Below, piece by piece: positions 57,407 to 63,078 of a stretch of DNA of 64,000 nt (its first letter is position 1; every line of letters begins with the position of its first letter). Origin of the DNA: Chryseobacterium aureum (GTDB taxonomy: Bacteria > Bacteroidota > Bacteroidia > Flavobacteriales > Weeksellaceae); NCBI RefSeq assembly GCF_003971235.1, contig NZ_CP034661.1, forward strand, positions 124,001 through 188,000, in the 5' to 3' direction. The translations under genes were made by a program, and so were the position numbers. The notes beneath the pieces are model-generated. The model was not told the DNA's origin. It made no database searches and saw only the letters and a list, made by a program, of their open reading frames with translations.

Positions 57407-57807
57407 TAGTTTATTTTAAAGTAGTAGATCTCTGTAATATGAATTAATGTTTAAATAATACACGATTAGTTGGATCTACAGGGGATTTGTTACACGTAAC
57501 AATTTAATTATGAAATAAATCCATTGAAGAAACTGATTTTGAATAATGGTAAAAGCAAGGATCAAATAAGAGTGTTACATAAAAAACAATAGTATGCATG
57601 GTATATTGGGGGTATTATGTTTTTTAAACAGTTTTGTTAGAGAATAGATTATTAACGCGTGTTAGCCGCATTTATTATAATACGCCTTCGGTATAGAAAA
57701 ATGCTTTTAAATCCGAAATATTAAATTTCTTTGCTGTAAAAATGTCAGCTTACGGAATTCTGATCAGAATATTAATCTTATATTGGCTGAGAATTAAGCG
57801 GAAGAAT
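57407..57807. other. Divergent upstream region of the TonB and TlpA genes
   Basis: No gene is supported here. The frame of the TlpA gene is open back to 57742, but the extension (SAYGILIRILILYWLRIK) is poorly preceded by start signals. I see no full TTTG-N19-TAnnTTTG match. Confidence 0.45.
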
Positions 57808-58410
57808 ATGGAAAATCTGAAAGTGTGGCTGAGAAAAAATACCTCTACTACAATACTGACTGTGTTGTTTCTGATTGTATTGGTGAATAAAGACGCAAAG
57901 GCATGGCTGATGAGACAGGTGGCTTCCACCGGAATTCTGAATTCCCGCATATCAGAAGCAAAAGAAATACACAATGCTTTACCGAAGGCTTCCTATGCAG
58001 ATTTTACCGTGAAAAATGAAAACGGAACAGTTATTAATTTCTCAGATTTACAGGGTAAAGTGGTTTTCATTAATTTTTGGGCATCCTGGTGCCCACCTTG
58101 CCGTGCTGAATTTCCGTCTGTGCAGAAATTCTACAACCAGTACAAAAAAAGTCCGGATATGGTATTTCTCACCGTAAACCTTGATGATAATCCGGATCTT
58201 GGGAAATCTTATTTACAGGAAAAAGGCTTTACCGTTCCTTTTCTGGTTCCGTCAGGCAAAATTCCTGAAGGGCTTTACAGCGGTTCTCTTCCCACAACCG
58301 TTGTACTTGATAAAAAAGGAGTGATCCGCTTGCATCATAAAGGATTGGCAGACTACAGTAAACAATCCTTTTACAGGCAGATAGATCATCTCCTGAAAGA
58401 AAAATCTTAA
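57808..58410 (+). CDS. Membrane-anchored TlpA-like thioredoxin
   Basis: A 200-residue protein from ATG 57808 (MENLKVWLRKN), with one N-terminal membrane anchor (TTILTVLFLIVLVNKDAKAW) and a periplasmic thioredoxin domain. The redox motif WCPPC has cysteines at 95 and 98 (NFWASWCPPCRAEFPS), and a cis-proline is in GSLPTTVVLD. TlpA/ResA-type proteins reduce disulfides, for example in cytochrome c maturation. A Crp/Fnr-type gene follows in the same direction after 36 bases. Confidence 0.88.
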   Translation: MENLKVWLRKNTSTTILTVLFLIVLVNKDAKAWLMRQVASTGILNSRISEAKEIHNALPKASYADFTVKNENGTVINFSDLQGKVVFINFWASWCPPCRAEFPSVQKFYNQYKKSPDMVFLTVNLDDNPDLGKSYLQEKGFTVPFLVPSGKIPEGLYSGSLPTTVVLDKKGVIRLHHKGLADYSKQSFYRQIDHLLKEKS

Positions 58411-58446: not shown

Positions 58447-59010
58447 ATGCTGAATCAGCTAAGAACGCACATTGAAAAAATAATTCTTCTTAATGATGAT
58501 GAATTTGAATTGATATCCTCCTGCTTTACCTATAAAAAATATAAAAAACATCAGTTTTTGATACAGGAAGGAGAGGCTGTGCCTTACAACTATTTTGTTT
58601 TGAAAGGTCTTCTGAAATTGGTGTTTACAGACGGAACGGGAAAAGAACATATCATTGGTTTTGCTATGGAAGATTGGTGGGAAACAGATTTTCCTGCTTA
58701 CTATCAGCAAACCGCCGCCACAATGTCCCTGGAATGTGTGGAAGATACGGAAGTTTTATGCATCCCATTGGATAATTATAAAAAACTCTGTGCGCAGCTT
58801 CCCAAGCTGGAGCATTTCTTCCTGGAAAAAGCCTATAGGGGATTTATTACTGCCCAGCAGCGTACAGTTTCCATGATGACCACCGGAATTAAGGAACGGT
58901 ATGATCAGCTCCTGAAAAAGTATCCTTCTTTAGTACAACGTGTTCCGAAATCTCTCCTGGCAGCCTATTTAGGCGTATCCAGGGAAACATTAAGCCGGCT
59001 GCCTCTGTAA
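58447..59010 (+). CDS. Crp/Fnr-family transcriptional regulator
   Basis: A 187-residue regulator. The cyclic-nucleotide-binding fold covers about 15-120 (YKKHQFLIQEGEAVPYNYFVLKGLLKLVFTDGTGKEHIIGFA), without the arginine of true cAMP pockets that I can see. The C-terminal HTH reads VPKSLLAAYLGVSRETLSRL. There are no clustered cysteines, so it is not an oxygen-sensing Fnr. Two Crp-type palindromes lie just downstream, before ridA, and are plausible targets. Confidence 0.9.
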   Translation: MLNQLRTHIEKIILLNDDEFELISSCFTYKKYKKHQFLIQEGEAVPYNYFVLKGLLKLVFTDGTGKEHIIGFAMEDWWETDFPAYYQQTAATMSLECVEDTEVLCIPLDNYKKLCAQLPKLEHFFLEKAYRGFITAQQRTVSMMTTGIKERYDQLLKKYPSLVQRVPKSLLAAYLGVSRETLSRLPL

Positions 59011-59014
59011 CCAA

Positions 59015-59028
59015 GTGACAAAGCTCAC
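59015..59028. promoter_or_regulatory. Crp/Fnr-type palindrome, upstream copy
   Basis: GTGA-CAAAGC-TCAC, matching the core of the Crp family half-sites GTGA-N6-TCAC. It begins 4 bases after the regulator's stop codon, and its centre is 23 bases from the second site. Confidence 0.55.
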
Positions 59029-59036
59029 CTGATCAT

Positions 59037-59052
59037 TGTGATCCCGGTCACA
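59037..59052. promoter_or_regulatory. Crp/Fnr-type palindrome, downstream copy
   Basis: TGTGA-TCCCGG-TCACA, an exact TGTGA-N6-TCACA. It lies about 58 bases before the ridA start codon. Confidence 0.65.
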
Positions 59053-59109
59053 GGAATTTATTACAACTGTTCCGCACTTTTGTATTGTAATAAATAACAA
59101 TTCAAAACA

Positions 59110-59499
59110 ATGGAAAAAAGAACCGTTAATCCATGGAAATGGCAGGATGAGAGAAGCTATTCTCAGGCTGTGGAAGTAAAAAATGCAGAAGCAACTTTAT
59201 ATTGTTCGGGGCAGGCAGCTATTGATGCTGACGGAACATCCAGTAACAAAGATATGAAATCTCAGCTTGAGCAGGCTATTGCCAATCTGGAAGAAGTAAT
59301 CAGTTCGGCAGGCTATGAATGCCATGGTATTGTAAGATTAAATATCTATACCACTGCCACAGAAGAGCTCTGGCCGCATTTCCCTATTCTTCAGGAGTGG
59401 ATTGCTAAACATAAAATCCAACAGGCAGTGACTATGCTGGAAGTAAAAGGTTTGTTTGAAACATTAAAGGTTGAGCTTGAAGCCACCGTAGTGAAATAA
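59110..59499 (+). CDS. RidA-family protein
   Basis: A 129-residue YjgF/YER057c/UK114-fold protein. RidA proteins hydrolyse reactive enamine/imine intermediates made by PLP enzymes. Family-like segments are TLYCSGQAAIDADG, QLEQAIANLEEVISSAGYECHGIVRLNIYTT and QQAVTMLEVKGLF. The usual substrate-binding arginine near the motif VRLNIYTT is present. It is the first gene after the Crp-type boxes. Confidence 0.88.
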   Translation: MEKRTVNPWKWQDERSYSQAVEVKNAEATLYCSGQAAIDADGTSSNKDMKSQLEQAIANLEEVISSAGYECHGIVRLNIYTTATEELWPHFPILQEWIAKHKIQQAVTMLEVKGLFETLKVELEATVVK

Positions 59500-59784: not shown

Positions 59785-59882
59785 GTTTAAAATAAACGAT
59801 TATTATGGATAATTAGTTAAACTTATTAATGTGCTATTTATTCATATTTGAGAGTATATTATTCATCAAAACCAAAATTATT

Positions 59883-60692
59883 ATGAAACGTAAATTCATC
59901 TACTTATTTTTTTTATCAGGATCTTTTATTTTTTTGAGTGCACAGGTAGGGATTAATACAACAAATCCGCAAGGCGTATTTAATATTGACGGCGCGAAGG
60001 ATAATCCTGCTACAGGAGTACCATCAGTAGCACAACAAGCTAATGATGTGGCTGTTACTGCTGCAGGAAATATGGGAATAGGGACTACCGTTCCCACCAA
60101 TAAGCTTCATGTAAACGGAACAGATCCGTTACGCCTGCAGGGAGTGGGAAGCGGAAACAGTTCTACAGATCCACTGCTGGTAATTGATGCCAATGGGGTT
60201 GTAAAAAATATTGGTACCTTAGGAGCTTTATCTATCCCAAGTCCTGCGGTTTTCCGTTTGGAGACGGCACAGGGTAATTTTTTACAGGCACAGGGAGCCG
60301 GAGGATCGCAGGTGGTACCAATGACTATTATAAAAAATTCTATTCCCGGGCTCACCTATAATGCTGGAACAAGCACCATAACTTTTCCCGCAGGAACTTA
60401 TCAGATTACATTTGTTTATGAAGCAACACATAATGCTACAGGATGTACAATCAGCTCTTATTTTGTAGATTTCCCTCTTAATGCTACTACTTCAAGAATT
60501 CACAATACAGGATCCCATTCTGAAGGAGCGCTTTCCAATCATGGAGGAACCATTACGTATGCCACTACACTTCCAGCCAACCGAACCTGGACGATCGCAC
60601 TAGGAAGGGGCCAGTCCGGTAATTGTTCAGGTGCAGGAATGAACCTTTCTGCAACATCCACTCAGCTGCTGGTATTCCGAATCGGAGATTAA
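59883..60692 (+). CDS. Exported protein with GINTTNP-type N-terminus and jelly-roll-like C-terminus
   Basis: A 269-residue exported protein from ATG 59883 with a signal peptide (KRKFIYLFFLSGSFIFLSA). The mature start QVGINTTNPQGVFNIDG and a second copy GNMGIGTTVPTNKLHVNG are the short repeats common in flavobacterial surface and tail-fibre-like proteins. The C-terminal half (FPAGTYQITFVYEATHNATG to TSTQLLVFRIGD) looks like a C1q/TNF-like jelly roll. Function unknown; likely cell surface. It ends at a strong terminator. Confidence 0.75.
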   Translation: MKRKFIYLFFLSGSFIFLSAQVGINTTNPQGVFNIDGAKDNPATGVPSVAQQANDVAVTAAGNMGIGTTVPTNKLHVNGTDPLRLQGVGSGNSSTDPLLVIDANGVVKNIGTLGALSIPSPAVFRLETAQGNFLQAQGAGGSQVVPMTIIKNSIPGLTYNAGTSTITFPAGTYQITFVYEATHNATGCTISSYFVDFPLNATTSRIHNTGSHSEGALSNHGGTITYATTLPANRTWTIALGRGQSGNCSGAGMNLSATSTQLLVFRIGD

Positions 60693-60886: not shown

Positions 60887-60922
60887 TGGATATGCAAATA
60901 AAATTTCCAGTATAAGTTAAGC
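60887..60922 (+). repeat. Terminal inverted repeat of the IS, orfB end
   Basis: Begins TGGATATGCAAAT and ends AAGTTAAGC. It pairs with 62113-62148 at about 26 of 36 positions. The stop of orfB (60917) lies inside it. Confidence 0.85.
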
Positions 60923-61795
60923 TACATTTTTGTAAATTTTATTTTGATTGTTAAATTCTTCTATTGTTTGATAATTCAGGGTACTGTGCCTTCTTTTTTT
61001 ATTGTACCATATTTCAATATATTCAAAAATTTCAAGTTCCATCTGTTCTCTTGTGATAAGCTTGTTTCCGTAAATTAGTTCTGTTTTCAATGACTTGAAG
61101 AAGCTTTCAGCCACTGCGTTATCCCAACAATTCCCTTTTCTGCTCATACTCCTTTTTACTCCATAAAAAGCAAGAGTATTTGTGAATTTTTTACTTGCAT
61201 ACTGAACACCTCTGTCTGAGTGAAAAATTAATTTACTGTCCGCTTTTCTATTTTTGACAGCCATTTTCCAGGCAGCTAAACTTGTCTCCGTGGTACTCAT
61301 CCCAGTACTTAAGCTCCAACCAATTACTTTTCGATCAAACAAATCTATAATTGCTGTCAGGTATAAAAATCCATCTTTGGTTTGGAGATAAGTGATGTCA
61401 GAGACCCAAGCTTGGGATGGACTGCCAACCAAAAAGTTTCTATTCAGGATGTTCTCTGCAATCAAATAATTGTGTTTTGAATCTGTTGTTACTCTAAATT
61501 TTCTGCTTAATTTACTTCTTAAACCAAGCTCTTTCATATATTTTGCAACCGTTATTCTGGAGGTCTTAAAACCTGATGAGTCTAATTCTACAGTAATTCT
61601 GGGACTTCCATAGCGTTGCTTTGATGCAAAATAAATAGATGTTATTTGTTTTTTTATCTCTCTTTTTCGTCTCTCTCTATTAGAAAGAGGTCTTGCTTTC
61701 CATTTATAATAACTACTGTAGCTTACTTTTAAAACACTGCACATTTTTTCAATCGGAAATAAAGATTCATGATTCTTAATGAACTCGTATTTCAT
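60917..61795 (-). CDS. IS3-family transposase OrfB (integrase domain)
   Basis: A 292-residue DDE transposase. The N-terminal HTH_21-like region (YKWKARPLSNRERRKREIKKQ) is followed by the rve integrase core. The catalytic acids are Asp in WVSDITYLQTKDG, Asp in IFHSDRGVQYAS, and Glu in DNAVAESFFKSLKTELI. The end RRHSTLNYQTIEEFN is the usual C-terminal motif. It starts inside the stop codon of orfA, in the -1 frame. Confidence 0.95.
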   Translation of the reverse strand: MKYEFIKNHESLFPIEKMCSVLKVSYSSYYKWKARPLSNRERRKREIKKQITSIYFASKQRYGSPRITVELDSSGFKTSRITVAKYMKELGLRSKLSRKFRVTTDSKHNYLIAENILNRNFLVGSPSQAWVSDITYLQTKDGFLYLTAIIDLFDRKVIGWSLSTGMSTTETSLAAWKMAVKNRKADSKLIFHSDRGVQYASKKFTNTLAFYGVKRSMSRKGNCWDNAVAESFFKSLKTELIYGNKLITREQMELEIFEYIEIWYNKKRRHSTLNYQTIEEFNNQNKIYKNVA

Positions 61796-62091
61796 CGACC
61801 GCTCTTGGAAAAAATGGCGATTGCTTTTTTTAATATATCACGCTCAAGCTCTGCATCTCTAAGTCTTTTTTCTAATTCATGAATTTTTTCCTGCTCTGGA
61901 GTTTGTTTGAGATTACCCTTCCCAGGAAAACTCTTTTCTCCGAATTCCTGATAATCTTTTCTCCATTTGTAAAGCATCGTTACTTCAATACCCAGCTCTC
62001 TTGCCAGTTCCGAAATATTAGATCGCTCATAGCTCAATTGAACTGCTTGTTTTTTAAAAGCCGGATCATAGATTTTTCGCCCTTGTTTCAT
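61792..62091 (-). CDS. IS3-family transposase OrfA
   Basis: A 99-residue HTH protein (YDPAFKKQAVQLSYERSNISELARELGIEVTMLYKWRKDY) with a leucine-zipper-like tail (EKIHELEKRLRDAELERDILKKAIAIF). A run of seven A on the minus strand (61825-61831), in the LKK codons, is a likely -1 slippage site to make the OrfAB transposase. The -1 frame is open from there into orfB. Confidence 0.93.
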   Translation of the reverse strand: MKQGRKIYDPAFKKQAVQLSYERSNISELARELGIEVTMLYKWRKDYQEFGEKSFPGKGNLKQTPEQEKIHELEKRLRDAELERDILKKAIAIFSKSGR

Positions 62092-62148: not shown

Positions 62149-63078
62149 ATTGAACTTTTTTCAAAACATGCTTTAGTAGGAGGTGCTACACAGGGAATCG
62201 GAGCCGGAATAGCCACCGAACTGGCAAAATGTGGAGCCCATGTTACCGTTATGGCCCGTAATGAAGCAAAGCTTAAAGATTTCGTTTCTGCACTGCCTGT
62301 GATCACTGATGGTCAGAAACATGACTATCTGGCCGCTGATTTTTCAGATTTTGAAAGCTACAGAAAAATTATGGCTGGATATTGTAATACGCATCCGGTA
62401 GATATTCTGGTAAACAATACCAATGGCCCGGAACCGGGCTTAGCAATTGGCAAAAGCACAGATGATTATCAGAAAGCATTTGACCTTCTGTTCAAAACCG
62501 TTTGTGAAACAACATTACTGGTTCTGCCTCATATGATTCAACAAAAGCACGGACGTATCATCAATGTTTCCTCTTTATCGGTAAAAGAACCCATCGGAAA
62601 TCTGGCTTTATCCAATTCAATCCGTTCTGCTGTAATGGCATGGGCAAAAACACTTTCCAATGAGATTGCGGAACATAATGTTACAGTCAATAATGTTTTA
62701 ACAGGATATTTTGACACCGAACGAATTCAAAAACTGGTTGCTCATGAGTCTCAGCAAAGTGGTGCTCCGGAAGAAGAAATAAAAAAGGCCAGAGAAAATA
62801 AAATTCCGATGAAAAGATTCGGGCAGCCGGAAGAATATGGTCATCTGGTAGCTTTCCTGGCTTCAGAATATTCAAATTACCTTACAGGAACAAGCATTCC
62901 GCTGGACGGTGGGTTGAATAATACGTACTAAAATTTTATTGAGATAAGAAGCCCATACTTTTTAAACTACAAAAGCCATATAAAAGTTACGTTTATTATC
63001 TTTGGTTTTTAGGATAAAATACGTTAAATGTAATAACCCCTTATCACCAGTTGTCCTATACATATTGGAAAATAATAT

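Follow-up and report, generated by a model that had tools for sequence, protein, structure and literature searches.

A conserved pair of Crp-type palindromes between a short Crp/Fnr-type regulator and an arginine-less Rid gene in Bacteroidota: a predicted local, cAMP-independent switch

Two Crp-type palindromes lie in tandem in the gap between a Crp/Fnr-type regulator gene and a Rid-superfamily gene of Chryseobacterium aureum, and this operator pair is real and deeply conserved across many Bacteroidota genera. We consider it likely that the regulator acts locally and independently of cAMP, as a Crp-like activator of the gene that follows, with the two palindromes as its operators. The window, i.e. 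the whole 64-kb stretch of DNA analysed, corresponds to positions 124001-188000 of a 5.07 Mb single-contig genome, and the locus is organised as follows (window coordinates):

57742-58410, + strand: TlpA/ResA-like thioredoxin gene, before the regulator gene
58447-59010, + strand: Crp/Fnr-type regulator, 187 aa, with a cNMP-fold sensor domain and a C-terminal helix-turn-helix (ORF; PF00027, 1e-12; AF2; Foldseek; 3dn7 profile)
58981-58998, + strand: RETLSR codons, R179-R184, the equivalents of CRP R180-R185 (alignment to E. coli CRP, NC_000913.3)
59011-59109: regulator-Rid gap, 99 bp
59014-59029, no strand assigned: predicted distal operator AGTGACAAAGCTCACC, 3 bp past the regulator stop codon, position conserved; centre estimated at about -65.5
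59030-59036, no strand assigned: linker of 7 bp, which sets the 23-bp centre spacing (profile of 60 loci)
59037-59052, no strand assigned: predicted proximal operator TGTGATCCCGGTCACA; centre estimated at about -42.5 (class II)
59075-59082, + strand: -7 box CACTTTTG, consensus TAnnTTTG, implying a transcription start near 59087
59110-59499, + strand: predicted target gene, encoding a Rid-superfamily protein of 129 aa in which the catalytic arginine of RidA is missing (PF01042, 4.1e-18)

The palindrome positions given in an earlier note on this DNA (59015-59028 and 59037-59052), together with the 23-bp centre distance and the 99-bp gap, are exact. The distal core GTGA-N6-TCAC (59015-59028) lies within AGTGACAAAGCTCACC (AGTGA-N6-TCACC), which departs from the full TGTGA-N6-TCACA at 2 of 10 positions, and TGTGATCCCGGTCACA has no mismatch; the centres fall at 59021.5 and 59044.5. 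TGTGATCCCGGTCACA is the sole exact TGTGA-N6-TCACA 16-mer in the window, and the whole genome holds four. At up to two mismatches the 16-mer shows no excess in the window (26 observed vs 31.5 expected), so that the distal palindrome, taken alone as a full 16-mer, is unremarkable. Single sites with at most one mismatch are modestly enriched in the genome (138 vs 77 for a reversed control) and are by themselves too noisy for defining a regulon. The exact tandem GTGA-N6-TCAC-N9-GTGA-N6-TCAC, on the other hand, occurs once in the genome, in the regulator-Rid gap. Loosening the tandem to three mismatches retrieves 5 places vs 7 for a reversed-pattern control and carries no signal; only the exact match is therefore informative. 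Its uniqueness leads us to reject a global Crp regulon with many tandem sites. At up to one mismatch the tandem is present in 62 of 296 family genomes, with one match each, and the reversed-pattern control gave 0 in every genome listed in that search. Among the 30 tandem matches examined (of the 62), 29 sit between a regulator with RETLSR in its recognition helix and a Rid gene; the remaining one (L166) precedes a DJ-1/PfpI-like gene, and no RETLSR regulator was found within the 3 kb examined around it.

For footprinting, 30 loci from family genomes were combined with 80 named loci (the best 80 of at least 553), giving 109 distinct loci out of 110 once a duplicate (L023 = L149) had been counted a single time; these loci are related, and counts drawn from them are therefore not independent. 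Among the best 80 of at least 553, the named loci include Chryseobacterium, Flavobacterium, Aquimarina, Leeuwenhoekiella, Pedobacter, Mucilaginibacter, Sphingobacterium, Chitinophaga, Niastella, Dyadobacter, Hymenobacter and Fulvivirga, genera that we take to span four orders, and the regulator has its closest named homologues in Chryseobacterium (75-91% identity). TGTGA-N6-TCACA with at most one mismatch is found between -12 and +60 of the regulator stop in 92 of 109 loci, 46 times in exact form, and in the same test the best other permutation of the half-sites scores 1/109. The spacer is equally specific: when lengths of 0-12 were scanned, a spacer of 6 yielded 92 loci and every other spacer 17 or fewer. 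In 17/109 loci that interval contains no site at up to one mismatch, and L110 has none within 500 bp even at up to two. That the palindromes are due to chance, as one might suppose from weak matches in the window being as common as expected, is refuted by the contrast between 92 loci and the permuted half-sites and by the 62 family genomes vs none for the control; we give this explanation practically no credence. The earlier note had considered the boxes to exceed chance and had put forward footprinting as a check, and on both counts the conservation of a Crp-type palindrome beside orthologues bears it out. The tandem itself is not universal: in the 108 loci of a two-site profile (L154, at a contig end, was set aside), both sites are recognisable at up to three mismatches in 63 and neither in 6, with the proximal site only in 28 and the distal only in 11.

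Where both sites are present their arrangement is strict, the spacing being 23 bp in 65 pairs and the next commonest value accounting for 6. In the window the linker reads TGATCAT, a partial match to the A-n-A-A-T stretch favoured by relatives (60-locus profile). From the end of the proximal 16-mer to TTTG the distance is 25-27 bp in 86 of the 106 loci (of 109) that have a site at up to two mismatches, and 14 further TTTG counts fall at 48-49 bp, i.e. one site spacing more; the 108-locus profile searched gaps of 25-27 only and is no independent evidence for this distance. The conservation profile of the relatives' gaps displays the two sites, the linker and the -7 box (TAnnTTTG), and contains no conserved -33 element. 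According to excerpts of a transcription-start map of F. psychrophilum, the -7 box TAnnTTTG spans positions -12 to -5 (PMC9723704), which would put the centre of the proximal site at -41.5/-42.5 and that of the distal site at -64.5/-65.5. E. coli Crp sites peak, in excerpts of PMC5957442, at -41.5 (class II) and -61.5 (class I). The distance between site and -7 box thus fits a class II position near -41.5 relative to the implied start, and class II Crp geometry with an additional upstream site suggests an activator-dependent promoter architecture. The evidence is stronger for an operator of the adjacent regulator acting on the next gene than for an activator. If the regulator bound both sites and instead repressed the Rid promoter, blocking polymerase at -33 until an inducer is present, its predicted binding would be equally well supported, and a site over the -33 region could occlude the polymerase. 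However, the position is held to about 1 bp at class II distance, and the conserved -33 element expected of a repressed promoter is missing; we therefore regard repression as improbable and favour activation.

In several loci (L023, L104 and L046) the palindrome overlaps the regulator stop codon, and in many it begins a few bases past it or overlaps it, as might be expected if the palindromes acted at the 3' end of the regulator gene as a terminator, a hairpin or an autoregulatory element. No T-run follows them in the window, however, and when extra sequence, partly simple repeats, separates the regulator stop from the sites (L115, L123, L128 and L035), the sites are still found adjoining the -7 box of the downstream gene. 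Moreover, the 200 bp before the regulator gene contain no site with at most one mismatch in any of the named loci, which are the best 80 of at least 553, and a role at the 3' end is accordingly very unlikely. The insertions between stop codon and operator in L115, L123 and L128 look like simple sequence. The earlier note had also envisaged that the regulator sets its own level from the same region. Since the sites follow the downstream promoter, and none at up to one mismatch precedes the regulator in the 80 named loci, the data support control of the neighbour but lend no support to autoregulation from here.

The regulator matches PF00027 above the cut-off and thus possesses a cNMP-binding-type beta-roll domain. 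Its AF2 model (mean pLDDT 95) retrieves the CRP and FNR folds with Foldseek; helices at 168-174 and 179-183, and an alignment that covers the CRP helix-turn-helix (HTH) up to R185, account for the C-terminal part. The Pfam search of the regulator gave no HTH match, and such proteins may consequently carry no annotation beyond cNMP binding. The chain stops three residues past RETLSR, so that the wing after the recognition helix is absent. In E. coli CRP, R180, E181 and R185 are the base-reading residues for TGTGA. The recognition helix is SRETLSR here vs SRETVGR in E. coli CRP, and CRP R180, E181, T182 and R185 are identical in 47/47 aligned regulators (CRP from NC_000913.3). The cAMP pocket has fared differently. 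CRP contacts cAMP through G71, E72, R82, S83, R123, T127 and S128; among the 47 regulators E72 is replaced by D and R82 by A, S or T without exception, G71 and S83 are mostly changed, and the positions of R123, T127 and S128 fall in an alignment gap that may in part be an alignment artefact. The score against the CRP equivalog is likewise low (28.4 bits vs a cut-off of 266). The replaced residues and the sub-cut-off score speak against a cAMP-dependent CRP, and by its sequence the adjacent regulator is not a cAMP receptor. The boxes had been described as E. coli-like, a description that holds for DNA recognition and fails for cAMP sensing. W77, W78 and D81 of the regulator are invariant and align beside CRP G71/E72, a region that we take to be the phosphate-binding cassette, and these residues may line a different pocket. 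FNR-type oxygen sensors need N-terminal Fe-S cysteines; the regulator sequence has no cysteine before residue 26, and an FNR-type sensor was rejected.

The link between recognition helix and operator extends to the homologues. Of the 26 cNMP-domain (PF00027) matches in the genome, both RETLSR proteins have a site just downstream at up to one mismatch vs 0/24 of the others. In a phylum sample, for which 28 of 30 loci were scored (L192 and L193 were left out as repeats, and L199 repeats L043), the site accompanies 10/16 RETLSR regulators vs 0/12 others; six of the 16 have no site at up to one mismatch, and for the RETLSR regulators L206, L208 and L209 the best match within 100 bp has four mismatches or worse. 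Pooled, these counts give 12/18 with RETLSR vs 0/36 without (Fisher p 5.4e-8, kinship ignored).

The single-site design is also found at other promoters. GTGA-N6-TCAC-N26-28-TTTG occurs five times in the genome vs once for the control, and the five promoters are those of the Rid gene and of four others (genome coordinates):

238465-238509 (L188): TGTGA-N6-TCACA without mismatch, before a SnoaL-like gene (Pfam match below threshold); recurs in relatives
1163436-1164071 (L189): RETLSR paralogue, then site and YceI gene; here the module has a different target
2569536-2569580 (L190): site flanked by a Crp/Fnr gene of the SREVVSR type and by a DUF5777 gene; recurs in relatives
2675730-2675774 (L191): GTGA-N6-TCAC before sdhC at the same distance to TTTG; near-identical in relatives

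Among the loci read, all five promoters recur before the same genes in relatives. A search of ten genomes placed 27 of the 30 loci read, among the matches listed, before one of the five recurring genes (adding the own-genome loci makes this 32 of 35; L232 and L242 denote one and the same position). Because this design recurs before the same genes, the motif serves more than one promoter, and it probably does so by way of several Crp/Fnr proteins; it may thus be shared by other members of this family in the genome. The genome-wide motif search suggested in the earlier note separates an exact tandem, found only in the regulator-Rid gap, from a single-site design at five promoters. Could the palindromes be bound mainly by another, global Crp/Fnr protein, with adjacency being secondary? 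The 26 PF00027 matches provide candidates, the paralogue at 1163436 has the same helix, and motif and geometry recur before the sdhC, DUF5777 and SnoaL-like genes, away from RETLSR regulators. Against this stand the restriction of the exact tandem to the regulator-Rid gap, the RETLSR regulator adjoining 29 of the 30 tandem matches examined, and the lack of a neighbouring site in all 36 homologues without RETLSR. We deem a global binder unlikely and retain the adjacent regulator as the predicted ligand of both sites.

The predicted target belongs to the Rid superfamily (PF01042, 66 bits vs a cut-off of 27.3), and its TIGR00004 (RidA) score remains below the cut-off (54.7 vs 106.25 bits). The equivalent of RidA Arg105 is missing in 82/82 Rid proteins (A in 74, V in 4 and T in 4), and a glutamate is kept in all 82. 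A better RidA candidate is encoded elsewhere in the genome, at 3790887 (L222), which scores 159.2 bits, above the cut-off, and keeps the arginine. We rejected the identification of the gene as ridA on account of the sub-cut-off TIGR00004 score and the missing catalytic arginine. The earlier proposal that the regulator controls ridA thus stands in so far as the co-occurring helix and the activator-type position before the Rid gene support control, and has to be amended in that the gene is not ridA proper. In excerpts of PMC4433059, the arginine essential for imine hydrolysis is missing in Rid4-Rid7, the function of which is called unknown there. Across the 109 loci the next gene encodes a Rid protein in 83, a DJ-1/PfpI-like protein in 20 and a YceI protein in 2, with 4 unassigned. 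A search of the open-licence literature, with limited wording, returned no paper that connects a regulator of this kind to RidA, YceI or DJ-1 in Bacteroidota, which is weak evidence of absence. Further downstream, an IS3-type transposase pair lies directly upstream of a short-chain dehydrogenase (SDR) gene (window 60917-62091 and 62251-62931). In relative L020 the SDR gene directly follows the Rid gene, and in the window the insertion junction is where its native start region has been replaced. Between the Rid gene and the IS/SDR genes, at 59829-60692, lies a gene for a putative secreted protein, which is missing there in L020.

We propose that the adjacent Crp/Fnr-type regulator would bind each palindrome as a dimer, a state assumed from its relatives, and would read TGTGA-N6-TCACA through the Arg-Glu-x3-Arg pattern as E. 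coli CRP does, without cAMP. A dimer at about -42 would replace the missing -33 element and recruit RNA polymerase to the -7 box (class II), and a second dimer at about -65 would strengthen activation. The output would be the arginine-less Rid protein here, and a DJ-1/PfpI-like or YceI protein in other lineages. Conserved operators, their spacing, the fixed position of the -7 box, RETLSR co-occurrence and the loss of cAMP residues were computed; that the regulator binds, forms a dimer and activates rather than represses we infer, as we do the start of transcription and the signal. The varying neighbour (Rid, DJ-1/PfpI-like or YceI) suggests that the module is a local switch of one regulator and one neighbour, which probably serves stress. 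More tentatively, and with less confidence than we have in the mechanism at this locus, such modules might be exchangeable stress switches throughout the Bacteroidota, in which a cAMP-blind activator with operators at its 3' end would drive a neighbouring Rid, DJ-1/PfpI-like, YceI or SDR gene and sense a reactive metabolite via W-W-x-x-D of the beta-roll.

To our knowledge, most short Bacteroidota Crp/Fnr-type proteins have no known targets. Here, regulator, predicted operator, promoter geometry and target come together within 660 bp that are conserved in many genera of the Bacteroidota, which makes for a directly testable model of activation at a Bacteroidota -7 promoter; the tie between an arginine-less Rid protein and a specific regulator also offers a handle on the Rid role. 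The system is of an ordinary kind in an uncharacterised form, and its novelty is modest; it is well suited as a test case by virtue of its tight geometry, missing cAMP pocket and arginine-less Rid target. It resembles an E. coli CRP class II promoter in TGTGA-N6-TCACA, in the base-reading residues and in the estimated centre at -41.5/-42.5. Unlike E. coli CRP, the regulator lacks the cAMP-binding residues and the wing after the recognition helix, has a local target rather than a global regulon, and is associated with the Bacteroidota -7 box instead of a -10. Its closest structural relative is 3dn7, a 'cyclic nucleotide binding regulatory protein' of Cytophaga hutchinsonii (best profile, 4.8e-44; best fold, rmsd 1.4), for which we know of no target; 3dn7 shares the short Bacteroidota type, but its helix aligns as TPEYLSE, not RETLSR. 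With regulators of the Crp-FNR superfamily that have a neighbouring target, the module shares the adjacent promoter, the palindromic operator and the single regulator, and it differs from them in that no cofactor motif was recognised and the operator lies at the regulator's own 3' end. Finally, the Rid protein is similar to Rid4-Rid7, as characterised in excerpts of PMC4433059, in keeping the glutamate and lacking the catalytic arginine, whose position is occupied by Ala, Val or Thr here vs Trp in Rid4 and Rid7 and variable residues in Rid5 and Rid6.
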